From positions 1 to 50,284 of IMG/VR virus record IMGVR_UViG_3300011114_000542: a stretch of DNA of 50,284 nucleotides; one strand, given 5' to 3'. Positions 5,552 to 40,027 of this stretch are shown piece after piece. The notes below the pieces were generated by a model. The model ran no database searches, was not told where the DNA came from, and saw nothing but the letters and a program-made list of their open reading frames with translations. The position numbers were made by a program, and so were the translations under genes. The DNA comes from a virus. Each line of letters begins with the position of its first letter. Position 1 is the stretch's first letter.

Positions 5552-5974
5552 ATGGAAAACAAAGGATTATATTTAGGGTTATGCAATTTAAGCTCTTGTA
5601 AAACTGAAAAGACTGCTACACACTATAATTACGGTAATTCAAAGTACTATTGTAAAGAATGCGCCGAAAGATTAAATGCCGATGAGTATAATAAACGTGA
5701 TGCAATGCGGATGTTTGGACATGATTTATGTATTGAAGAATCGTTAAGACCTAAACCATTAAATGAAATAGTGGAACAAGGTAATAAGGTTTATATGATT
5801 GAAAACATTAATGATGAATATTTATTTGACAGAAGTTATATGTACGATAAACCTACTAAAAAACAAATGAATCAAGTGGTAGTTTCTGTACGCACAGAAC
5901 CTAAATATCAAAACAACGAACCTTGCCCCTGCGGAAGTGGAAATAAATATAAAAAATGTTGTAAGAAAGTGTAA
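5552..5974 (+). CDS. SEC-C motif zinc-binding protein, 140 aa
   Basis: The last ~18 residues (EPCPCGSGNKYKKCC) form a SEC-C zinc-binding motif, as at the SecA C-terminus and in many stand-alone proteins. The N-terminus has a second cysteine set (C11, C16, then Y-C-K-E-C near residues 34-37) that could form another zinc finger. The protein probably binds a partner or nucleic acid through zinc fingers; there is no enzyme motif. It has its own promoter, and its stop TAA is built into the promoter of the following DGR target gene. It is the first gene of the rightward early block. Confidence 0.8.
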   Translation: MENKGLYLGLCNLSSCKTEKTATHYNYGNSKYYCKECAERLNADEYNKRDAMRMFGHDLCIEESLRPKPLNEIVEQGNKVYMIENINDEYLFDRSYMYDKPTKKQMNQVVVSVRTEPKYQNNEPCPCGSGNKYKKCCKKV

Positions 5975-5995
5975 CCTTTATTTTTTATTTACGTT
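5971..5995 (+). promoter_or_regulatory. GTAACC-N13-TACGTT promoter of DGR target 1
   Basis: GTAACC (5971-5976) contains the TAA stop of the previous gene; TACGTT is at 5990-5995 and the ATG follows 28 bp later after an A-rich leader. Confidence 0.75.
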
Positions 5996-6023
5996 AAACA
6001 GTATAAATCAAAACAAAACTATT

Positions 6024-6458
6024 ATGAAAGAAATGAAAATCAAAGTTGACGGAATTGAAATCGAGTTAACTAAAGAACAAATCGAAAAGATTAATAAATC
6101 CAAATCTGTTACAGATAGAATTAAAACTTTTGAGGATGTATTAGAAGATAATAACATCTCTGAACTAGACTTTAAAGCATCTTGTAAAGGATTAGATGAA
6201 GATGAAATTGCTTATAAACAAGTTAAGCTAATCATTAAATCTTTAAATGAAGGTTGGGAACCTAATTGGAATAAAGGTAATGAATATAAATATTACCCAT
6301 ATTTCGATATGAGGGACAGTGGCGGTTTTTCTCACTCGGGTTGCACTGTGTGGGGTACTGGGACGGACGGCGGTTCTCGCTTTTGCTTTAAATCAAGAGA
6401 ATTATCTAATTATGCAGGAGGAACATTTTTAGATATTTATAAAAAATTTATAAAGTAA
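6024..6458 (+). CDS. DGR variable protein 1 (VR1 at its C-terminal part), 144 aa
   Basis: Start chosen at ATG 6024, which follows an A-rich leader and a promoter; an upstream GTG-type extension would overlap the previous gene. The N-terminal half is helical (KSVTDRIKTFEDVLED), followed by 'NEGWEPNWNKGNEYKYYPYF' and the variable segment at residues 99-121 (SGGFSHSGCTVWGTGTDGGS...), then a constant 'FKSRELSNYAG' tail. The variable part differs from the template repeat only at template adenines. It is paralogous to the protein at 7664-8128. The ligand is unknown; the gene is not in the virion module, so a role in host recognition cannot be assumed. The fold around the VR is probably a compact beta domain, possibly C-type-lectin-like, but I cannot show this. 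Confidence 0.85.
   Translation: MKEMKIKVDGIEIELTKEQIEKINKSKSVTDRIKTFEDVLEDNNISELDFKASCKGLDEDEIAYKQVKLIIKSLNEGWEPNWNKGNEYKYYPYFDMRDSGGFSHSGCTVWGTGTDGGSRFCFKSRELSNYAGGTFLDIYKKFIK
6318..6386 (+). repeat. DGR variable repeat VR1
   Basis: 69 bp aligned without gaps to TR (6496-6564). I count 17 differences and all 17 lie at adenines of the TR. Flanks outside 6318-6386 do not match TR. Confidence 0.9.
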
Positions 6459-6495
6459 ATAATATTGAGGTTGTACAAAGAATGAATTGTAAAAT

Positions 6496-6564
6496 AGTGG
6501 CAGTTTTTCTAACTCGAATTACAATGAATGGAATACTGAAACGAACAGCAGTTCTCACTTATGC
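6496..6564 (+). repeat. DGR template repeat TR
   Basis: Non-coding 69-bp segment between VR1 gene and reverse transcriptase. Read in the VR phase it is rich in AAC/AAT codons (N-S-N-Y-N-E-W-N-T-E-T-N), the usual template design, and is preceded in phase by a TAA stop. It is homologous to both VRs from AGTGGC to TGC; downstream of TGC it diverges from them. Confidence 0.9.
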
Positions 6565-6666
6565 AGAACAAAATTATCATTGTAAACCTTGGCAACAAGC
6601 CAAAAAATAAAAATATTTAACAGGGTCGTTAGTAAATAATTGAAACCGACTTTTTTAAAGCAAAAT

Positions 6667-7620
6667 ATGAAAAGAATAGGTAATTTATATAATCAAATAA
6701 TTAGCATTGAAAATTTGATGTTGGCGGATAAAAAAGCAAGTAAAGGCAAGTCTGACACTTATGGAGTAAAAGAACATAGAAAGAACCAAGAAGCTAATAT
6801 TTTAAATCTACAAAACACTCTCTTGAATAAAGAATATAAAACCTCAAATTACACTGTTTTTAAAGTGTATGAGCCTAAAGAAAGAGATGTTTATAGATTG
6901 CCTTATTATCCTGACAGAATCCTACATCACGCTCTAATGAACGTATTAGAACCTATATTTGTTTCTGTATTCACAAATGATACTTATAGTTGCATAAAAG
7001 GAAAAGGAATACACTCGGCTGCTAATGGAGTTAAAATGGCTCTAAAAGACGAATTAAATACTCAATATTGCTTAAAGTTAGATATAGTTAAGTTTTATCC
7101 TAATATCAACCACGGTATCTTAAAATCGCTATTAAGACGTAAATTTAAAGATAATGAATTGCTTAATTTACTTGATGAGATAATAGATTCGTGTGACGGT
7201 GTTCCTATTGGAAATTACTTGAGCCAGTATTTCGCAAACTTCTATCTTACGCATTTTGACCATTGGATTAAAGAAACAAAACAAGTGAAAAATTATTTTA
7301 GATATGCAGATGATTTAGTAATATTGTCTAGTAATAAGCCTTATCTCCATGAACTATTGTTTGATATTAGAAAGTACTTAAAAGATAATCTTGAACTAGA
7401 TATTAAAGGTAACTATCAAATATCCCCCGTAGATGCTAGAAGTATTGATTTCGTTGGATATAGATTTTATCACACCCACACAATGTTAAGAAAATCAATA
7501 AAGAAAAACTACGCTAGAATGCTTAGAAAAAATAATAATCCTAAATCAATAGCATCTTATCACGGATGGTTAAAACACGCTAATTGTATAAATCTTAAAA
7601 ATACTTTACTTTATGCGTAA
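6667..7620 (+). CDS. DGR reverse transcriptase
   Basis: 317 residues from ATG 6667 (a TTG at 6640 would add nine residues; the protein starting MKRIGNLYNQI fits the family better). It has RT motifs in order: RLPYYPDRILHHALM, LDIVKFYPNI (palm Asp at about 140), GNYLSQ (182-187) and YADD (213-216). G-x-x-x-S-Q in place of the retroviral/retron Q-G-x-x-x-S-P is the diagnostic motif of DGR reverse transcriptases. The C-terminus 'SYHGWLKHANC' is also typical of the Bacteroidota DGR-RT group. It copies the TR RNA with adenine infidelity and the cDNA replaces VRs. The gene follows TR without an evident promoter of its own, so TR and RT are probably co-transcribed from 5971. Its stop TAA is part of the next promoter. 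Confidence 0.93.
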   Translation: MKRIGNLYNQIISIENLMLADKKASKGKSDTYGVKEHRKNQEANILNLQNTLLNKEYKTSNYTVFKVYEPKERDVYRLPYYPDRILHHALMNVLEPIFVSVFTNDTYSCIKGKGIHSAANGVKMALKDELNTQYCLKLDIVKFYPNINHGILKSLLRRKFKDNELLNLLDEIIDSCDGVPIGNYLSQYFANFYLTHFDHWIKETKQVKNYFRYADDLVILSSNKPYLHELLFDIRKYLKDNLELDIKGNYQISPVDARSIDFVGYRFYHTHTMLRKSIKKNYARMLRKNNNPKSIASYHGWLKHANCINLKNTLLYA

Positions 7621-7641
7621 CCTTTTCAAATATATATCGTT
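7617..7641 (+). promoter_or_regulatory. GTAACC-N13-ATCGTT promoter of DGR target 2
   Basis: GTAACC (7617-7622) overlaps the RT stop codon; the second box ATCGTT (7636-7641), within TATCGTTTAAC, is at standard spacing. ATG 7664 follows an A-rich leader. Confidence 0.65.
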
Positions 7642-7663
7642 TAACTTAATAAAAACAAACAAA

Positions 7664-8128
7664 ATGGACACAGTAAACATTCAAAAAAGAGATGCTATTA
7701 CAGCATACAACAAGGCGGACACTAAAGAAAAAGCCTTATTAGAAAACTTATTCGGAAAAGAATTATTTAATCAGAAAATAACTGATAGAATAAAAACAAT
7801 GCAAGACGTGTATTCTGAATTAGGAATTGACAAAACTGTATTCGAGAAATCTTTTATATTTAAAGAAGATTTAGATGCAGCTAAAGTAAGATTGATAACT
7901 AAAGTGTTCAATGAAGGTTGGGAGCCTGATTGGTCTAATTCAAATGAATACAAATACCTTCCTTGGTTTGAGCCAAACAACAGTGGCGGTTTTTCTGACT
8001 CGGATTTCATTGACTGGCATACCGGGACGTTCGGCGGTTCTCGCCTTTGCTTTAAATCAAAAGAGTTAGCTTTAAGTATTCCTTTACAATTCAAAACAGA
8101 ATATGAGAATTATATCTTAATTAAATAA
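7664..8128 (+). CDS. DGR variable protein 2 (VR2 at its C-terminal part), 154 aa
   Basis: Start at ATG 7664 after an AAACAAACAAA leader. Paralogue of the 6024-6458 product: 'TDRIKTMQDVYSELG', 'NEGWEPDWSNSNEYKYLPWF' and the constant tail 'GGSRLCFKSKELA' align directly. The variable segment occupies residues 107-129. Compared with target 1 it has a longer N-terminus and a different far C-terminus. Its independent promoter suggests separate dosage control. Two T-to-C differences from TR (non-adenine) are present in the repeat, probably ordinary drift. Same unknown ligand question as target 1. Confidence 0.85.
   Translation: MDTVNIQKRDAITAYNKADTKEKALLENLFGKELFNQKITDRIKTMQDVYSELGIDKTVFEKSFIFKEDLDAAKVRLITKVFNEGWEPDWSNSNEYKYLPWFEPNNSGGFSDSDFIDWHTGTFGGSRLCFKSKELALSIPLQFKTEYENYILIK
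7982..8050 (+). repeat. DGR variable repeat VR2
   Basis: 69 bp aligned gaplessly to TR 6496-6564: I count 17 differences, 15 at TR adenines and two T-to-C (TR positions 42 and 64). Confidence 0.9.
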
Positions 8129-11734: not shown

Positions 11735-12048
11735 AACAAGAAGAGAAACCATTAGTGATAGAGAGTTCTATTAACTATAAACTATCAATATCTACTGAAG
11801 GATATGAATTTAGTAATGAGCCATCAATCGGCGCGGACTTAGCAGGATTAATAATAGCTAAAAGAATCCACGAAGATATGATGACTGAAATATTAGAACT
11901 AAAGAAAATAGGTATTCAAAAGGAGTTTAAACAGTCATTTGAGAATAGATTGAAAGATTTAAGAAAGTCTATTCATGCTATTAACTTCTCTATTACTCAA
12001 GTATTGAAGTTTGCAGCTAAAGAAAGTTTAAATAAAGTTGAAGAATAG
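11731..12048 (+). CDS. Hypothetical protein, 105 aa
   Basis: Begins MKQEEKPLVIESSINYKLS. A short beta-rich N-terminus is followed by long helices (residues about 38-105, 'IAKRIHEDMMTEILELKKIG', 'NRLKDLRKSIHAINFSI') that could form a coiled coil. No recognised family. It overlaps the preceding gene by 4 bp and ends 1 bp before the next promoter. Confidence 0.7.
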   Translation: MKQEEKPLVIESSINYKLSISTEGYEFSNEPSIGADLAGLIIAKRIHEDMMTEILELKKIGIQKEFKQSFENRLKDLRKSIHAINFSITQVLKFAAKESLNKVEE

Positions 12049-12049
12049 T

Positions 12050-12074
12050 GTAACCTTTTATTTTTATATACGTT
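12050..12074 (+). promoter_or_regulatory. GTAACC-N13-TACGTT promoter
   Basis: GTAACC (12050-12055), TACGTT (12069-12074), ATG 9 bp later at 12084. Confidence 0.75.
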
Positions 12075-12083
12075 AAAGTAGTT

Positions 12084-12242
12084 ATGAAAGCGATTAAGTA
12101 TATATTTATAGGATTGTCTATTTTTGGATTTTTCATGTCATTAAATCCTCCAAAGACAAAAATTAAAGTAGTAAAAGAAATGCAAATAAATATCATTCCA
12201 AATTACAATAATAACGGAATGAATAAAGCAGATAGTGGCTAA
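12084..12242 (+). CDS. Small membrane-anchored or secreted peptide, 52 aa
   Basis: Begins MKAIKYIFIGLSIFGFFMSL: a basic N-terminus and one hydrophobic segment, i.e. a signal anchor or signal peptide, followed by a polar tail (KTKIKVVKEMQINIIPNY). It has a strong promoter. The TAA stop is the first triplet of the first attC-like repeat (TAAC at 12240). It is the last gene before the cassette block, or the first cassette if the block starts earlier. Confidence 0.65.
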   Translation: MKAIKYIFIGLSIFGFFMSLNPPKTKIKVVKEMQINIIPNYNNNGMNKADSG

Positions 12243-12340
12243 CGTTTGGTGGCTTGGCGAAGTAAAAGCCTTGCACTACTATTGATGGTTAGCACTACAC
12301 TTGATGGCTTTTATTTTGCCAATTGCGTGTTATCGGCTGC
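12240..12340 (+). repeat. attC-like site A
   Basis: Imperfect inverted repeat: TAAC...TTGGC..A.TAAAAGCC (12240-12270) against GGCTTTTAT.TTGCCAA...GTTA (12306-12332). The loop contains a tandem near-repeat of GCACTACTATTGATGG. It ends GTTATCGGCTG. The outer TAAC/GTTA and the inner arms match sites B-D in layout. Confidence 0.65.
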
Positions 12341-12378
12341 CATTCTTTCGGAATGATTAACTTAAAAACAAACATAAA

Positions 12379-12732
12379 ATGAAATACTTAAATGCAATAG
12401 AAATAAGAGTTGGAAACAACGTTTCTTTTAATAATGATGACATAAAATTAGATGGGTCTTTGTTTGCAATGTATCTACAAAACGAATTAGATAAACCTTT
12501 TTATCCTATTAAACTATCTGATAAATGGCTAACTGATTTTGGATTCACAAAAACTGAATGGGATAATAATAATTCGTTTAGAAAAATGGTTGGAAACAAT
12601 GACTACACAATAGTTTTCTATTCAAATTGCGTATGTGAAATAGGGGATATTATTACTAAGGAAATAGAATTTGTCCACCAACTACAAAACCTTTATTATG
12701 CACTTACTGGTGTCGAGTTGTCGGTGTCTTAG
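12379..12732 (+). CDS. Cassette gene 1: Bacteroidota conserved hypothetical, 117 aa
   Basis: Begins MKYLNAIEIRVGNNVSF and ends with 'FVHQLQNLYYALTGVEL'. The N-terminal 'IRVGNNV', central 'PIKLSDKWLTDFGFTK' and the C-terminal HQLQNLYYALTG motif are those of a small protein I recognise as widespread in Bacteroidota genomes, phages and gene cassettes; its function is unknown. Its leader is A-rich with no promoter of the GTAACC class. It lies between attC-like sites A and B, the arrangement of an integron cassette. Confidence 0.75.
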   Translation: MKYLNAIEIRVGNNVSFNNDDIKLDGSLFAMYLQNELDKPFYPIKLSDKWLTDFGFTKTEWDNNNSFRKMVGNNDYTIVFYSNCVCEIGDIITKEIEFVHQLQNLYYALTGVELSVS

Positions 12733-12741
12733 GGTTGCCGA

Positions 12742-12875
12742 TAACGTATCGGGGCTTGTAGCAGTAGGGGATTAGATGTACTACTGTTCAATATAGCACC
12801 ACAGCCTAATAGAAGTACTAAGGCTCAAAACTTGCACTTCTGCCCCTATTGCTACAAGCCCTTGTTAGCGGTAGT
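12742..12875 (+). repeat. attC-like site B
   Basis: TAAC at 12742; GGGCTTGTAGCAGTAGGGG (12752-12770) is complementary, with one G-T position, to CCCCTATTGCTACAAGCCC (12843-12861), followed by GTTAGCGGTAG. The long loop (~72 bp) resembles long attC loops. Confidence 0.65.
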
Positions 12876-12916
12876 ACGGTTTAATTTAGAAGGGATCAAT
12901 TTAAAAATTTACAAAA

Positions 12917-13354
12917 ATGTTAAGACCGTATTTAATACAAAGAGCGAAGTTTGAAAAAAGAGAAGGTAAAGGAATTGATACACTACTTGGATTTGATTAT
13001 ATGGGCAGTTCAGAATTTGAGTGGGGTGCATTGCCAAAAGCGTTAAAAAGAACAAGAGAAAACGAAAAAGAGTATGTTCAGTTTGAATTTACTTTTGAAA
13101 ACCTTGAAGATAAACCTATAATGATTTTGTGCAAAGAAGCCAATAAGGAAGAACTGCCTAAAATATTGGGTCAGCTTGCCGATAGAGAATTAAGATTGAA
13201 AGAATATTGCGACTTAGGTGATTATTTGAAAGGCAATAAGGATTATAGAACTTCTGATTTTTGGTGGGATATTGAAAACGATTATTTCTTTTGGCGTTCA
13301 AACGAAGATTTTAATAACGAGTTTAAAAAATGTCTGTTTGAAAACGGTAAGTAG
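12917..13354 (+). CDS. Cassette gene 2: conserved hypothetical, 145 aa
   Basis: Begins MLRPYLIQRAKFEKREG and contains 'LLGFDYMGSSEFEWGALPKALKR' (residues about 23-45), a motif I have seen in small uncharacterised bacterial and phage proteins. The C-terminus is aromatic and acidic (WWDIENDYFFWRSNEDF). No enzymatic motif is identified. Base composition is a little richer in G and C than in flanking phage genes, consistent with separate origin. It lies between sites B and C and has no visible promoter. Confidence 0.7.
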   Translation: MLRPYLIQRAKFEKREGKGIDTLLGFDYMGSSEFEWGALPKALKRTRENEKEYVQFEFTFENLEDKPIMILCKEANKEELPKILGQLADRELRLKEYCDLGDYLKGNKDYRTSDFWWDIENDYFFWRSNEDFNNEFKKCLFENGK

Positions 13355-13363
13355 TATTACCAC

Positions 13364-13419
13364 TAACGGACGAGTATTTGCGCTCGTTTTAATGGCGCAA
13401 ATACTGTGTTATGCTTAGT
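13364..13419 (+). repeat. attC-like site C
   Basis: Short site: TAACGGACGAGTATTTGCGC (13364-13383) against GCGCAAATACTGTGTTA (13395-13411), 11-base loop, followed by TGCTTAG. It shares AGTATTTG/CAAATACTGTGTTA with site D. Confidence 0.7.
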
Positions 13420-13463
13420 ATTTTTTATCATTTTGTGCGGAGGCTTTTAAACTTAATTTAATT

Positions 13464-13973
13464 ATGAAAACGATAATATTTAGACCATTACGAAGGATAA
13501 AGAAAACAGGCAAAATAACCGTTGCTTCTTATATGCAATGGCGAAAAGTAAAGACTGCCGACTATAATAATTTTAAGTTGATTGTAAATGAGGAATACAA
13601 AGCATTTCCGAAAGACGAATTGGTGTATGACCATAATGGCGAAAATTTATTTTGGAGGCATTACAATCCCGAAGAAATACCGATGCTAAACCGATACGCT
13701 TTAGTTGATGGAGAGCAACCACCATACCCGCCAATGTGGAAAACAGATTACGGTATGTATTCGGCTAAAGGATTGGATTGTGATGGTGTGCCAACTTTCT
13801 CACACGGAACGGCAAATGAGATTGTAAAAGACCACACAAGAAAACTAAACGAATACGAGCCGTTGACAGTTGAAATAGTTAATTGGTGGTTTGGATGGTT
13901 TCTTTATCAATTACAGAATAATGAACTTGTCTTTGGAGGGCGGGAAAAAAATGATAAAAAATATTGCACATAA
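13464..13973 (+). CDS. Cassette gene 3: hypothetical, 169 aa
   Basis: Begins MKTIIFRPLRRIKKTGK. Aromatic-rich protein with many Trp and Tyr (QWRKVK, LFWRHYNPEE, PPYPPMWKTDYGMY, IVNWWFGWFLYQL). Its stop TAA is the first triplet of site D, a tight fit between coding end and recombination site that is usual for integron cassettes. No family recognised; composition differs from the AT-rich phage core. No promoter is seen. Confidence 0.7.
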   Translation: MKTIIFRPLRRIKKTGKITVASYMQWRKVKTADYNNFKLIVNEEYKAFPKDELVYDHNGENLFWRHYNPEEIPMLNRYALVDGEQPPYPPMWKTDYGMYSAKGLDCDGVPTFSHGTANEIVKDHTRKLNEYEPLTVEIVNWWFGWFLYQLQNNELVFGGREKNDKKYCT

Positions 13974-14064
13974 CGGTTGAGTATTGGCGAAGTGCCACCA
14001 GTACAAACTTAAATTCAAGGCACAAACTATCTGTGGCATTTTGCCAATACTGTGTTATAGGTAG
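13971..14064 (+). repeat. attC-like site D
   Basis: TAAC...AGTATTGGC.AA.TGCCA (13971-13997) is complementary to TGGCATTTTGCCAATACTGTGTTA (14034-14057), then TAGGTAG. It is the clearest of the four sites, with separate outer and inner paired boxes and unpaired bases between, as in attC. Confidence 0.7.
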
Positions 14065-14078
14065 TTGTTTTAAAAATT
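14054..14078 (+). repeat. Left copy of 25-bp inverted repeat flanking cassette 4
   Basis: Starts at the GTTATAGGTAG end of site D; 24 of 25 bases are complementary to 14506-14530. Confidence 0.8.
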
Positions 14079-14103
14079 AGCGTTGGCATTAAAAAACGAA
14101 ATT

Positions 14104-14493
14104 ATGATTAACGAATTAGCAAAAGAAATTCATTTAAACGCAAAGAGCAAAGGCTTTTTTGACGAACCGAAAAACATAGGCGAAATGCTTTGTCTTATAC
14201 ATTCAGAAGTATCGGAAGCATTGGAAGCTGCCCGAAAAAACCATTACGCTGTAAAGAGTTGGAATATTGAAAAGAATATTGATTTAAACGATATGGATTC
14301 AACTTCAAAAAAGCAATATTTTCAACAAGAATTTGAGGTAGCAATCAAAAACAGTTTTGAGGACGAATTAGCCGATGTTATGATTAGGGTAATGGATTTG
14401 GCAGCGTTTAAAGGAATTGATTTGGAATACCATATTAAGATGAAAATGGCTTACAATGCAATGAGGGAACACAAACACGGTAAGAAGTATTGA
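14104..14493 (+). CDS. Cassette gene 4: MazG-like NTP pyrophosphohydrolase, 129 aa
   Basis: ATG 14104 was chosen (a TTG at 14083 would add seven residues). It contains the MazG-fold signature: an E-x-x-E-x-x-E-type helix (IHSEVSEALEAARKN, about residues 37-51) and the downstream E-x2-D helix (FEDELADVMIRVMDLAAF), which together bind Mg2+ and hydrolyse NTPs to NMP and PPi. The insert between the helices (about 40 residues) is longer than in the second MazG gene at 22526-22822. It is flanked by the 25-bp inverted repeat. A house-cleaning or alarmone-modulating role is inferred from the family. Confidence 0.8.
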   Translation: MINELAKEIHLNAKSKGFFDEPKNIGEMLCLIHSEVSEALEAARKNHYAVKSWNIEKNIDLNDMDSTSKKQYFQQEFEVAIKNSFEDELADVMIRVMDLAAFKGIDLEYHIKMKMAYNAMREHKHGKKY

Positions 14494-14505
14494 CCGTGCG
14501 GTGGG

Positions 14506-14530
14506 AATTTTTAAAACAATTACCTATAAC
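14506..14530 (-). repeat. Right copy of 25-bp inverted repeat flanking cassette 4
   Basis: Reverse complement of 14054-14078 with one mismatch. It replaces the attC-like site expected after cassette 4 and marks the right end of the block. Confidence 0.8.
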
Positions 14531-14540
14531 TATTATATGT

Positions 14541-14579
14541 AAACACTCCTTTGAAATGCTAATAAAATAAACACTCTTT
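14541..14579 (+). repeat. Direct repeat AAACACTCYTT upstream of the recombinase
   Basis: AAACACTCCTT (14541-14551) and AAACACTCTTT (14569-14579), 28 bp apart and just before the recombinase ATG at 14598. They may be arm-type binding sites or operators. Confidence 0.4.
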
Positions 14580-25534: not shown

Positions 25535-26371
25535 TTATATATACTTAAATTCGTAATTCTTAACTTTTTTTCTTTTACCTAATAAAACATTATAAACATT
25601 TCCAGAAGGCAAATTAAGTTGTTTACTAGCCGCTAAAGCTGATTCATAAATAATCCCATTATTTATACACATTACTTGTTTTCTATTCCATGCAACTCTT
25701 CCTTTTGCCGAATTAGACATTCTAATTTTAGACTCCTCGGAATGTTTTTTATTTAGAAAAGGATGCTTATTGTTTTTTAAATAATCTTTATTTTTAATGC
25801 TTATTTTTTCTCTAGTTTCACTACTTACCAAATGAAATTTAAGTGTATTTGATATTTTTTCTTTTGTTTTAAATGATACCACTTTTCCTTTCTGAGATTT
25901 AGATATTTTATCTTTAGTCTCTTCTGTTATTACTCTTAATTTTCTTTTTTCACTTAATTTATTCTTATGCTCTTCCGTAAATAATTTACCGAAATTCGGA
26001 TGCGATTCTTTTGAATATTTACCAGTTAAAGATTTAGATATTTTTTCTCTAGTTTCTTTAGAAATATCTTTATTATTATTTCCGCCACCCTCTTTATTAT
26101 ATCCATAAACACTATTCGTAGAGCCAAATTTGGTTATCCAATAAATCTCTTGTGTATCTAATAAATTAATATCACTTACACTATCTATAATACTAAAAAC
26201 AAAAGCACATTCTTTATATTTATTCCAAGCAGATTGCAAGTGTTTATTACCGTGTACGCTTCTTCTTAATCTACTTAAATGATGTTTCCATCTTTCATTT
26301 ACATTTGACAATTTAGTTTGTCCAATATAAACTTTATTATTTTCAGTATTTAATATTTTATAAATATACAT
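25535..26371 (-). CDS. GIY-YIG homing endonuclease with NUMOD3 repeats, 278 aa
   Basis: N-terminal GIY-YIG domain: YIYKI (2-6), VYIGQT (14-19), catalytic Arg in the 'ERWKHHLS' helix and Glu in 'DTQEIYWI'. A long middle region is made of repeated NUMOD3-type units 'S-x-E-T-R/K-E/D-K-I-S-x-S-x-K-G/T-K' (five or more), which bind DNA in phage homing nucleases. The C-terminus 'MCINNGIIYESALAASKQLNLPSGNVYNVLLGKRK' is a NUMOD1/HTH-type recognition domain. It sits within the virion operon with 1 bp to the upstream gene, like T4 Seg nucleases: a mobile gene, not a virion component. Confidence 0.88.
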   Translation of the reverse strand: MYIYKILNTENNKVYIGQTKLSNVNERWKHHLSRLRRSVHGNKHLQSAWNKYKECAFVFSIIDSVSDINLLDTQEIYWITKFGSTNSVYGYNKEGGGNNNKDISKETREKISKSLTGKYSKESHPNFGKLFTEEHKNKLSEKRKLRVITEETKDKISKSQKGKVVSFKTKEKISNTLKFHLVSSETREKISIKNKDYLKNNKHPFLNKKHSEESKIRMSNSAKGRVAWNRKQVMCINNGIIYESALAASKQLNLPSGNVYNVLLGKRKKVKNYEFKYI

Positions 26372-27580: not shown

Positions 27581-28315
27581 TTATATAATATTATTTTTTA
27601 TTTTAAAATTATCATAGGCGTTTTTAGCTTCGTCTATTGAATTATACCTGCCAATATACTTATTTTTATTATTAAAAAAAATAATTGCCATATATTTACT
27701 CCTGTTTTTATCAAAACATATCCCTTTTTCTCCAGTACTTGTTTTTAATAAAAACATTTTACGTTTCCACTGTTCACTTTTAGGCTTTCTAAGTGATTTT
27801 TTATGAGATTCGCTTTTAGGTATTCCAATAGATTTAATTGACATTTTTTTCTTTGTACTCTCAGTATGTGACGTTCCGTTTCTATGATGTTCAATTCCGC
27901 ATTCATATCTATTTTTTAAAGATTTTGATATTTTAAGTGAATGTACTTCCGTTTTCTTTCTACCCTTACCCGCTACAGATAATTTTATCCTTGTTGATTC
28001 CGATATAATTTTATTCTTAGTGCCGCCAGAATCTTTATTGTATCCGATTGATTCTTTTAATGAATTATATAAATTAATATATAAAATCTCAAATTTATCT
28101 AAGTCTGATATGTTACATTTATGCAAGACTGAAAAACAAAAAGACGATTCTTTATATTTATTAAAAGAATTTTGTAAGTGAGAATTAAAATGCTTTCCAT
28201 TTCTTAATCTACTTAAATGGTCTCTTTTTCTATTATATAAAGATTTAGTAGTTTGTCCAATATAAACTTTATTATTTATATCGTTTTTAATCATATATAT
28301 AGTGCCGTTATCCAT
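27581..28315 (-). CDS. GIY-YIG homing endonuclease with AP2-like C-terminus, 244 aa
   Basis: GIY-YIG domain at the N-terminus: TIYMI (4-8), VYIGQT (17-22), Arg in 'YNRKRDHL', Glu in 'DKFEILYI'. NUMOD3-like repeats follow ('ESTRIKLSVAGKGRKK', 'ESTKKKMSIKSIG'). The C-terminal ~50 residues 'GICFDKNRSKYMAIIFFNNKNKYIGRYNSIDEAKNAYD' match the AP2-type DNA-binding domain used by phage homing nucleases. It lies exactly between the two structural paralogues, which suggests that it arrived by homing near their conserved sequence. Confidence 0.88.
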   Translation of the reverse strand: MDNGTIYMIKNDINNKVYIGQTTKSLYNRKRDHLSRLRNGKHFNSHLQNSFNKYKESSFCFSVLHKCNISDLDKFEILYINLYNSLKESIGYNKDSGGTKNKIISESTRIKLSVAGKGRKKTEVHSLKISKSLKNRYECGIEHHRNGTSHTESTKKKMSIKSIGIPKSESHKKSLRKPKSEQWKRKMFLLKTSTGEKGICFDKNRSKYMAIIFFNNKNKYIGRYNSIDEAKNAYDNFKIKNNII

Positions 28316-29902: not shown

Positions 29903-30391
29903 TTAAGTTATGTCTATTGATGTTAAGTCTCCGTTACTATTGAAATTAAAAGCCTTTGTCTCTAATCCACTAGAAGTAGATGTAACTAATTTAGTTAAAC
30001 CTCCCTCAGAATTATATTCAAAAGTTTTAGTTTCTGTAACAGAACCATTCAAATATAATACTTTTTTAATTAAGTTTCCATTATTGTCATACGTTAAAAC
30101 AGAAGTATCCGCATTAGACTCTTCTACTACATTAGTGACTATTGTAGGAAACTGATTACTTGAAGTGGTTGATTGAGGTGTAGTAGTTGAATTAGATGTT
30201 GGAATCCCGTCATTAGCGTTTAATTTCTTTTGAGCAAGCCAAGTATCGTAGTTTGAATTAAGAACTCTTTGAAGAGCGCCGCCTGTTACTCCTTTATATA
30301 AATTACCATCTTCACAAACGTAAACATAATCTAATAATGAGCTTTTGCTAACCCATATAGAATTTATTTGCGAAGACGTTAAAACACTCAT
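29903..30391 (-). CDS. Virion-operon protein with YD-repeat-like C-terminus, 162 aa
   Basis: N-terminus 'SSQINSIWVSKSSLLDYVYVCEDGNLYKG', a Ser/Thr-rich linker (TSNSTTTPQSTTSSN, about residues 67-81), then three 'x-F/Y-x-x-N/S-G-x-L-x-x' units: LTYDNNGNLIKKV, FEYNSEGGLTKLV and FNFNSNGDLTSID. These resemble YD/RHS repeats, which form beta-wrapped structures. Probably an adhesive or fibre-tip protein; this is inference. Its start overlaps the next gene by 4 bp. Confidence 0.7.
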   Translation of the reverse strand: MSVLTSSQINSIWVSKSSLLDYVYVCEDGNLYKGVTGGALQRVLNSNYDTWLAQKKLNANDGIPTSNSTTTPQSTTSSNQFPTIVTNVVEESNADTSVLTYDNNGNLIKKVLYLNGSVTETKTFEYNSEGGLTKLVTSTSSGLETKAFNFNSNGDLTSIDIT

Positions 30392-38560: not shown

Positions 38561-40027
38561 TTATAAAGCTTTAATAGCACCTGATTGTACTCCTTGTTGT
38601 ATTTGTTCTTTTGTCCACCCTGCATTAATCCATTCTTGGACTGATGCGGACGGCACGTTTTGTTGAGCTTCCATTTGACTCATAGGATTTAAAGCATCCA
38701 TTTGTTTATTAGTCAATTTAGCAGCACTATTATATCTTGTTCTAAACCCTTCATTACTTAAATCGGCTTCTACTTGCGCGGGAACTCTATATAAAGTAAC
38801 AGGTTTACCTTTAACATCTTTTCCTTCATAAGGTACAATTAAATCATTCATAGTCTTATCATCTAAAACTCCTGAGTTATCTAATTCGTCTTCTGTCATT
38901 TCTACATAACCATGAAATACTCCTGTATTTTTACTTGATGAACGACCATATCCTTCATAAGCACCCGTCTTAGGATTAATTTTCTTTTCTACTTGCGCGG
39001 CTTGTTGGAATGCTCCCGTTGGAATAAACTTCAACCCTTCAGTAGATTTTAAGAATGAACCATCTTTATTGTAAATCTTAGCTTGTGGTGTAGTTCCTAA
39101 TGTAGCTTGAACTAAATCAGTATTTAATCTATTAGCTTTTGCTCCTTTAATATCATACATATACGGGTCCATATCATATTGTCCATTAGCCTTTGCTGCT
39201 CCGTGTGCCATTTTCCATTTCTCTAATTCAATAGCTGAGTTATGGTAAGGCTCACCAAGCTTACGTTTCAAGTCAATACCTGGCTTAATTAATTCAGCAG
39301 CATAAGCTATTCCTTCTGCATCGTTTTTAGGATTGTATGTAACTTGTATTTGACGTTTATGTCTATTGTAAAAATCTTGTGCGGCAGGAGCTACTGCATT
39401 CTCATCTATTAACTCTTCCCATCCGCCATTACCATGTTGCTTATACTTCCTAGCCTTAATCATTTGAGCTGTTTTCAAAGCCTCTTCATTTAAAGGAACA
39501 AAGTCTTCAGGTTTATCGTAAACAAATGCTCTTAGACCTCCATCTCTTTTTAATCCTTCTTCTCCATCTTGATGACCGAACCGCAAGTAATTATTCTTTT
39601 TATTAAGTAATTGTTGGTAAGCATCAGCATCGTACATATTAGGATTCTTAGCAACTTTAGCTAAGTCATCATTCAATCTTTTAAATGATTCATCAGAAGC
39701 CATGCCTCTAATTACATTTTCATTAGACTTTAAATATCTTCTTTTCTCGTTAATTAAACGTCTTGTGTCGGGGTCCGATTCCCAATTAGGATTATTCTTA
39801 GCTAACTGTCCAATCTCTAATAAAACCTTCTTAGAATCCGCGTCAATTAATCCTCTATCAAAAGAGTTAGAAGCGTTCATAACTTCATTATCTCCTTCAA
39901 ATGCAGTTAACTTAGCAATGTTTTCTTGTTGCGCTCTCTTTAATTGTTGGTCGTAGAACCTTTCATCTTGGATACGCTTATCGTAATCCATACTTTGTGC
40001 TAAACCGCGAGTAATACCGAAATCCAT
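38561..40027 (-). CDS. Virion-associated protein, 488 aa
   Basis: Begins MDFGITRGLAQSMDYDKRIQ and is largely helical, with an N-terminal coiled coil (residues about 15-130, 'QDERFYDQQLKRAQQENIAKL'). The end is short and Gln-rich ('VPSASVQEWINAGWTKEQIQQGVQSGAIKAL'). It lies directly upstream of the giant protein (2 bp gap), as with partner ejection proteins. I do not recognise a named family, but proteins of this type occur beside large internal proteins in Bacteroidota podovirus-like phages. Confidence 0.75.
   Translation of the reverse strand: MDFGITRGLAQSMDYDKRIQDERFYDQQLKRAQQENIAKLTAFEGDNEVMNASNSFDRGLIDADSKKVLLEIGQLAKNNPNWESDPDTRRLINEKRRYLKSNENVIRGMASDESFKRLNDDLAKVAKNPNMYDADAYQQLLNKKNNYLRFGHQDGEEGLKRDGGLRAFVYDKPEDFVPLNEEALKTAQMIKARKYKQHGNGGWEELIDENAVAPAAQDFYNRHKRQIQVTYNPKNDAEGIAYAAELIKPGIDLKRKLGEPYHNSAIELEKWKMAHGAAKANGQYDMDPYMYDIKGAKANRLNTDLVQATLGTTPQAKIYNKDGSFLKSTEGLKFIPTGAFQQAAQVEKKINPKTGAYEGYGRSSSKNTGVFHGYVEMTEDELDNSGVLDDKTMNDLIVPYEGKDVKGKPVTLYRVPAQVEADLSNEGFRTRYNSAAKLTNKQMDALNPMSQMEAQQNVPSASVQEWINAGWTKEQIQQGVQSGAIKAL

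Follow-up and report, generated by a model that had tools for sequence, protein, structure and literature searches.

The defining feature of integron integrases is the I2 helix, to which integron theory assigns a role in recognizing the folded attC site; a viral origin has been proposed without a complete example (PMC4792948). The paper that speculates on this origin describes I2 as unknown outside IntI and notes that CTXphi is not a complete system (Escudero 2016, PMC4792948). Host integron fragments and integrase-less clusters of attC sites (CALINs) have already been published from phages, and one attC of Polaribacter phage P12002L was shown to integrate into attI1 via IntI1 (Qi et al. 2023, PMC9892861). 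Here, we analyzed a block of small genes in the virus record IMGVR_UViG_3300011114_000542 (IMG/VR), a stretch of 50,284 bases referred to as the window. A first-pass annotation, made from the letters alone, had described this block as integron-like gene cassettes followed by a tyrosine recombinase gene. Our results indicate that it is very probably a phage-borne integron-type platform, with mobile cassettes, a fixed attI-like site and a phage-encoded tyrosine recombinase without I2. The anatomy of the array, the pairing of cassette ends, the fixed position, the shuffling and the gene orientation were all read directly from sequence comparisons. Compared with the published phage integron fragments and CALINs, the apparent novelties are the phage's own I2-less recombinase, its attI and the inverted cassettes; neither an I2-less phage integron nor inverted cassettes were found described in the open-access PMC papers searched.

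Four attC-like sites (12240-14057) partitioned the block into four cassettes of one gene each (Table 1), consistent with the canonical integron, in which a cassette is one gene plus one folded site and attI lies beside the recombinase. Each site began with TAACG on the left, continued as an imperfect inverted repeat around a loop of 11-72 nt and ended with GTTA on the right, and the four sites of one design proposed in the first-pass annotation were thus borne out. The same was true of its remark that a stop TAA is twice the first triplet of a site, since the TAA of sites A and D was the stop codon of the preceding open reading frame (ORF). A structural scan (TAAC...arm...arm...GTTA) called three of the four sites at threshold; site A scored below it, yet was plainly homologous to two sites of another viral locus, L014. 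Because the scan misses some sites in this way, all site counts are lower bounds. No further site of this structure was found by the scan elsewhere in the window, and 271 kb of reversed control sequence gave zero matches. A search of Rfam returned one tRNA only, and blastn of the block against phages gave chance-level or single-gene matches only. The ends in the window, together with the comparison of loci L010 and L011 described below, defined the mobile unit as a hairpin and the gene to its right. The hairpin was absent 3' of the last cassette gene, and the end of that cassette abutted the attI-like sequence. The recombinase gene began 71 bp past this sequence (TAAC-TATTATATGTAAAC, 14527). 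A CALIN has no integrase near its attC cluster, whereas the recombinase of the window adjoined the array.

An inverted repeat had been noted in each site. It was present, but the strong complementarity joined the two ends of one cassette and not those of one site. The bases flanking GTTA and TAAC hardly paired within one site, whereas within one cassette up to 25-27 nt were paired, as in cassette E (25 nt, 96%) and cassette D (27 nt, 85%). Across 155 phage cassettes, the ends matched in 87-94% at positions 5-9, compared with 28-43% when the partners were shuffled, and in 61-84% at positions 12-15; matches beyond position 15 were at background. Cassette sequences varied while the two ends of each stayed complementary, which is covariation and marks a unit that either folds back on itself or has its own ends rejoined. 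Within the otherwise paired 15-bp stem, position 11 matched in only 4% of the cassettes. The residue at position 11 from GTTA was near-invariantly G at the 5' end and A in the reverse complement of the 3' end, corresponding to a G-T wobble on the top strand and a C-A mismatch on the bottom strand. This non-match would give the two strands different folds and may act as a strand-selection signal replacing extrahelical bases. The sites themselves were asymmetric, with 5-6 unpaired bases after TAAC and 1-2 before GTTA, and each site therefore has a direction. The top strand folded lower in 132 of the 155 sites with a difference (p 9e-20), and the strand that folds would be the top strand. Complementary cassette ends and strand asymmetry of folding, as well as the permutation of cassettes between relatives, are shared with canonical integrons. 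The canonical R boxes RYYYAAC and GTTRRRY, however, fitted only 3% and 6% of 159 phage sites. A covariance model of canonical attC prepared with RNAalifold gave no base pairs because the bulges shift the register, and was left unused.

The tyrosine recombinase was located where it had been said to follow immediately, and it is probably a component of the system rather than an incidental neighbor. It is of the Xer/IntI kind, with all six catalytic residues intact. Its match to the integron integrase model TIGR02249 reached 166.5 bits, compared with a cut-off of 265, and was split in two stretches. The spacing from the patch-II lysine to HxxR was 64 in the phage enzyme, 65 in chromosomal relatives (type A2, described below), about 72 in XerC/D and 106 in IntI; the IntI (I2-type) insertion is therefore absent from the phage recombinase. 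Residues 183-245 of the IntI4 structure in PDB were unmatched in a chromosomal relative. The predicted structure was confident (predicted local distance difference test score, 91.7), and the best PDB matches of the model were XerA and IntI4. In quick trees with SH-aLRT (approximate likelihood ratio test) support only, the phage enzymes formed one clade (support 98 in the 51-row set and 94 in a smaller one), the IntI enzymes another (100), both of them apart from XerC/D (100), and the A2 types lay nearby. Other tyrosine recombinases fell among these clades, so an "integron clade" is not claimed. The term integron-like thus held for the layout and the cassette exchange, but not for the canonical IntI class, from which the system differed in the missing I2-type insertion, the separate recombinase clade and the R boxes.

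Viral loci were gathered by a search with the recombinase protein, blind to sites, and their enzymes were mostly 42-92% identical. The resulting 84 loci, many of them fragments, included near-duplicate contigs and were reduced to 49 non-redundant arrays with 159 unique sites. A terminase check using one Pfam family was positive in only 6 of 31 contigs, and the phage identity of many loci therefore rests on IMG/VR. Upstream of the recombinase, 218 sites were found on the plus strand and none on the minus strand, and only four lay downstream despite the larger number of bases there. Sites were present in 59 of the 66 loci whose upstream sequence exceeded 1 kb, and the array occupied the same place in more than 50 divergent recombinase lineages. 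A TAAC-TACTATATGTA motif preceded the recombinase in 67 of the 84 loci, 53-115 bp (median 56) ahead of the ATG; it doubles as the R'' of the last cassette and as the presumed attI. The attC-cassette layout put forward in the first-pass annotation was thus supported, and as a system the array was larger than had been described.

Relatives differed by units of one gene plus one site, as had been anticipated. The backbones of L010 and L011 were 98.4% identical up to the left border and 98.8% from attI onward, and their recombinase proteins were 100% identical. L010 carried 12 sites, and at least 6 were detected in L011. The two loci shared four cassettes (three 100% and one 99.4% identical) in permuted order, and the identity of these cassettes ended at TAAC on both sides. 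Related cassettes were also common to phages whose recombinases were only 63% and 80% identical. A tblastn search of the recombinase in named phages gave matches that were all below 60% identity, with no close relative among the matches listed, and therefore no cultured carrier was found. In L020, the recombinase gene (12037-13142) was split by an insert coding for a likely homing endonuclease. In L067 (3655-4818), L172 and L122 (9293), the recombinase was directly followed on the opposite strand by another, dissimilar tyrosine integrase and by a repressor-like gene; these two genes probably form the real lysogeny module of temperate carriers.

The direction of the genes distinguished the phage cassettes from those of both chromosomal array types. 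With orientation scored by the longest ORF in each cassette and the site direction defined as plus, the phage cassettes gave 153 plus and 5 minus, compared with 3 plus and 40 minus in Bacteroidota chromosomal arrays (Fisher p 5e-33) and 5 plus and 23 minus in canonical IntI arrays. The site direction, the side of attI and the orientation of the recombinase in the phages were equal to those of IntI arrays (L247-L249 and L254), and only the genes were reversed: phage cassette genes pointed towards attI, whereas canonical genes read away from it. In 52 of 153 cassettes, L010 and L011 providing examples, the ORF started inside the site and exited via the right arm; the start codon can thus come from the site. 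The cargo is accessory, DNA-modification genes included. Among 146 cassette proteins scanned for function were N6/N4 and C5 DNA methyltransferases, Dam, MT-A70 and Mom, as well as TET-associated glycosyltransferase (TAGT), PAPS-reductase-like and nucleoside-deoxyribosyltransferase proteins, and most of the rest were unknown. A total of 186 proteins fell into 164 families. In the window, only gene E had even a weak Pfam match; a genome scan with its protein gave three relatives, and, to the extent inspected, none of them lay within a cassette. DNA modification, and hence counter-defence, is a plausible selective reason for such cargo.

Related arrays were found on Bacteroidota chromosomes. One motif of the sites was present in 49 of 296 genomes (one control match), and the chromosomal arrays adjoined N-terminally extended recombinases (L047, L050, L056 and L062), of which those at L062 10856-11995 and L050 9788-10825 are examples of type A2. 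The A2 family was detected in 95 of the 296 genomes (E <= 1e-60), and 11 of 20 inspected enzymes lay next to arrays. These arrays shared with the phages the site sequence family, a recombinase without the I2-type insertion, and, in several loci, an attI of the form TAAC-N-TATATG. They also had the same 15-bp stem, with position 11 matching in 2% of 43 cassettes. The same analysis of cassette ends did not find a 15-bp stem with the position-11 non-match in canonical IntI arrays, which argues for shared recombination chemistry, or at least shared site grammar, between the phage and A2 systems. The two differed in that the A2 recombinase was N-terminally extended with its 3' end towards attI, while the phage enzyme had 277 aa and its 5' end towards attI; moreover, the A2 genes ran in the canonical way, and the phage recombinases formed a separate clade. 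The N-terminally extended I2-less recombinases ranged from 345 to 484 aa and ended large cassette arrays, the 484-aa one having an even longer N-terminus. Very few integrons are reported in Bacteroidetes by IntegronFinder (PMC9024848). Canonical IntI above the curated cut-off was observed in 84 of the 296 genomes, many with arrays, which is far more than the cited literature suggests.

Among phages, those of Qi et al. likewise carried attC-type sites and cassettes, with DNA methyltransferase cargo, but as host-integron fragments or integrase-less arrays; in the present loci, a variable array was located at a fixed position together with its own recombinase and attI. Two sites like those described here (30008-30056 and 38879-38936) were present in P12002L (L282, KR136259), each adjoining a DNA methyltransferase gene read in the same sense, and this phage lacked the recombinase. 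This cultured lytic phage with two orphan sites is a possible bench model. The pdif modules of Acinetobacter plasmids are exchangeable gene modules between inverted half-sites of the host tyrosine recombinases XerC/XerD (28-bp dif). They resemble the present cassettes in being bounded by such half-sites, but they have no hairpin site and no attI. In CTXphi, the phage single strand folds into a substrate of an I2-less tyrosine recombinase (host XerCD; PMC4792948), as is proposed here, but CTXphi has neither its own recombinase nor cassettes.

Since Bacteroidota chromosomes carry arrays with the same site design and 15-bp end stem, and integrase-less CALINs are known in phages (PMC9892861), the block could be a captured host array moved by a host integrase. 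Phage integrases usually adjoin attP, and the neighboring recombinase would then act only in lysogeny, with the attI-like motif as attP. We consider this improbable. The phage genes were inverted relative to the host cassettes (153:5 compared with 3:40), no close relatives of the phage cassette proteins were found in the host cassettes sampled, where the best matches had 26-31% identity, the array lay at one location in more than 50 divergent recombinase lineages, and the cassette ends coincided with the TAAC of attI. Some carriers, in addition, have another integrase.

Ordinary phage mosaicism, in which the hairpins are terminators or repeat elements and genes are swapped by homologous recombination between them, would fit the intergenic position of the hairpins and the similar arms of sites C and D. 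The hairpins, however, had no T-run design, the breakpoints lay at TAAC and not within the hairpins, and the ends co-varied inside a cassette though they differed between cassettes. The single orientation of the sites (218:0) and the start of about one-third of the genes inside a hairpin were also contrary to this explanation, which is very unlikely. The possibility left by the first-pass annotation that the repeats are unrelated terminators was ruled out by the breakpoints and the covariation, and the terminator or mosaic explanation was rejected on the same grounds, unless these are artefacts of the scan. Elements of the IS200/IS605 type have folded single-stranded ends with subterminal hairpins. 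Such features are common to the block, and single-strand transposition of hairpin-ended units by an IS200/IS605 or repetitive extragenic palindrome (REP)-associated Y1 transposase was therefore considered. This is hardly credible, as no Y1 HUH transposase was noticed among the window ORFs examined, the units lay in a row at a single fixed position next to a tyrosine recombinase, and their ends formed a palindromic 15-bp R stem instead of one subterminal hairpin each.

In the integron-type platform that we favor, the adjacent recombinase, linked to the cassettes by position and co-occurrence, would move them. It would act on a cassette as a folded single strand, with the cassette's own R' and R'' ends and the hairpin arms paired, cut within TAAC, and join the cassette to the attI-like site or excise it again. 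In this way, cassettes would build up and change order, bounded by attI and an unchanging left border. The inverted sense of the genes with respect to the site gives the whole array, attI and the recombinase a single reading direction, and the cassettes are therefore most likely expressed by phage transcription entering from the left, with the site itself often providing the start codon. Several points weigh against this model. Seven loci with more than 1 kb upstream had no site at the threshold used, and the attI motif was unmatched in 17 of the 84 loci. The attI-like site is defined by its conservation and its position at the array end, and the recombinase and the sites are linked by position and co-occurrence only. 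Given the role of I2 in attC recognition, an I2-less enzyme acting on folded sites would need another solution or a double-stranded reaction, and prophage integration could be an additional or an alternative function of the recombinase.

Table 1. Coordinates of the array, its cassettes and the adjacent recombinase in the window
Feature	Position	Strand	Remarks
Left border, 52-aa membrane-type ORF	12084..12242	+	stop TAA opens site A; region conserved beside first site of L020
attC-like site A	12240..12332	+	82-83% homologous to L014 926-1016 and 2797-2887
Cassette gene B, 117 aa	12379..12732	+	phrog_10066, unknown function; homologues in cassettes of L159, L163, L176
attC-like site B	12742..12867	+	scan score 44
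Cassette gene C, 145 aa	12917..13354	+	ORF, unknown
attC-like site C, 48 nt	13364..13411	+	loop CGTTTTAATG, as in P12002L site 30008-30056
Cassette gene D, 169 aa	13464..13973	+	unknown; homologues in viral loci L021, L022
attC-like site D	13971..14057	+	scan score 36
Cassette gene E, 128 aa	14107..14493	+	weak MazG-like (nucleotide pyrophosphohydrolase); PF12643, E 0.009, below cut-off
Mobile unit 1 (site A + gene B)	12243..12744	+	boundaries set at the TAA/C junction
Mobile unit 2 (site B + gene C)	12745..13366	+	boundaries set at the TAA/C junction
Mobile unit 3 (site C + gene D)	13367..13973	+	boundaries set at the TAA/C junction
Mobile unit 4 (site D + gene E)	13974..14529	+	boundaries set at the TAA/C junction; abuts attI
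Cassette D R' end	13408..13434	.	pairs with own R'' 13948-13974
Cassette D R'' end	13948..13974	.	pairs with own R' 13408-13434
Cassette E R' end	14054..14078	.	pairs with own R'' 14506-14530
Cassette E R'' end	14506..14530	.	pairs with own R' 14054-14078
attI-like site TAACTATTATATGTAAAC	14527..14544	+	array end, presumed insertion point; conserved across recombinase loci
Tyrosine recombinase, 277 aa	14598..15431	+	R132 K157 H222 R225 H248 Y257 present; without IntI-type insertion

To the left of the array, window positions 12031-12251 aligned to L020 10486-10709 at 77%. A structural protein whose relatives are crAss-like, together with a weakly matched crAss ring protein, indicated the phage character of the window. 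A reverse transcriptase (6640-7620, PF00078) was flanked on either side by proteins that are related and resemble each other at the C-terminus (GGFSxS...WxTGTxGGSRxCFKSxEL), and this region (5937-8128) resembles a diversity-generating retroelement that has two target genes. Two ORFs judged by eye to be GIY-YIG-like homing endonucleases (25535-26371 and 27581-28315) were located amid the structural genes.

Taken more broadly, we lean towards the view that a distinct integron class, the recombinases of which never had the I2 helix, is common to Bacteroidota and their phages, and that its phage branch captures genes as a self-contained platform in which the genes have been reversed to suit phage transcription. 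If true, this class would have a bearing on the viral and Xer-like origin proposed for integrons, either as an intermediate that still survives or as a separate invention. How I2 and attC could each have arisen in the absence of the other is an open chicken-and-egg question (PMC4792948), which a phage platform with cassette sites, attI and an I2-less recombinase makes testable. Such a class may partly explain why few Bacteroidetes integrons are reported by the standard tool (PMC9024848), and it would show that phages can keep a built-in, shuffling store of accessory genes, with DNA modification prominent among the recognizable ones.

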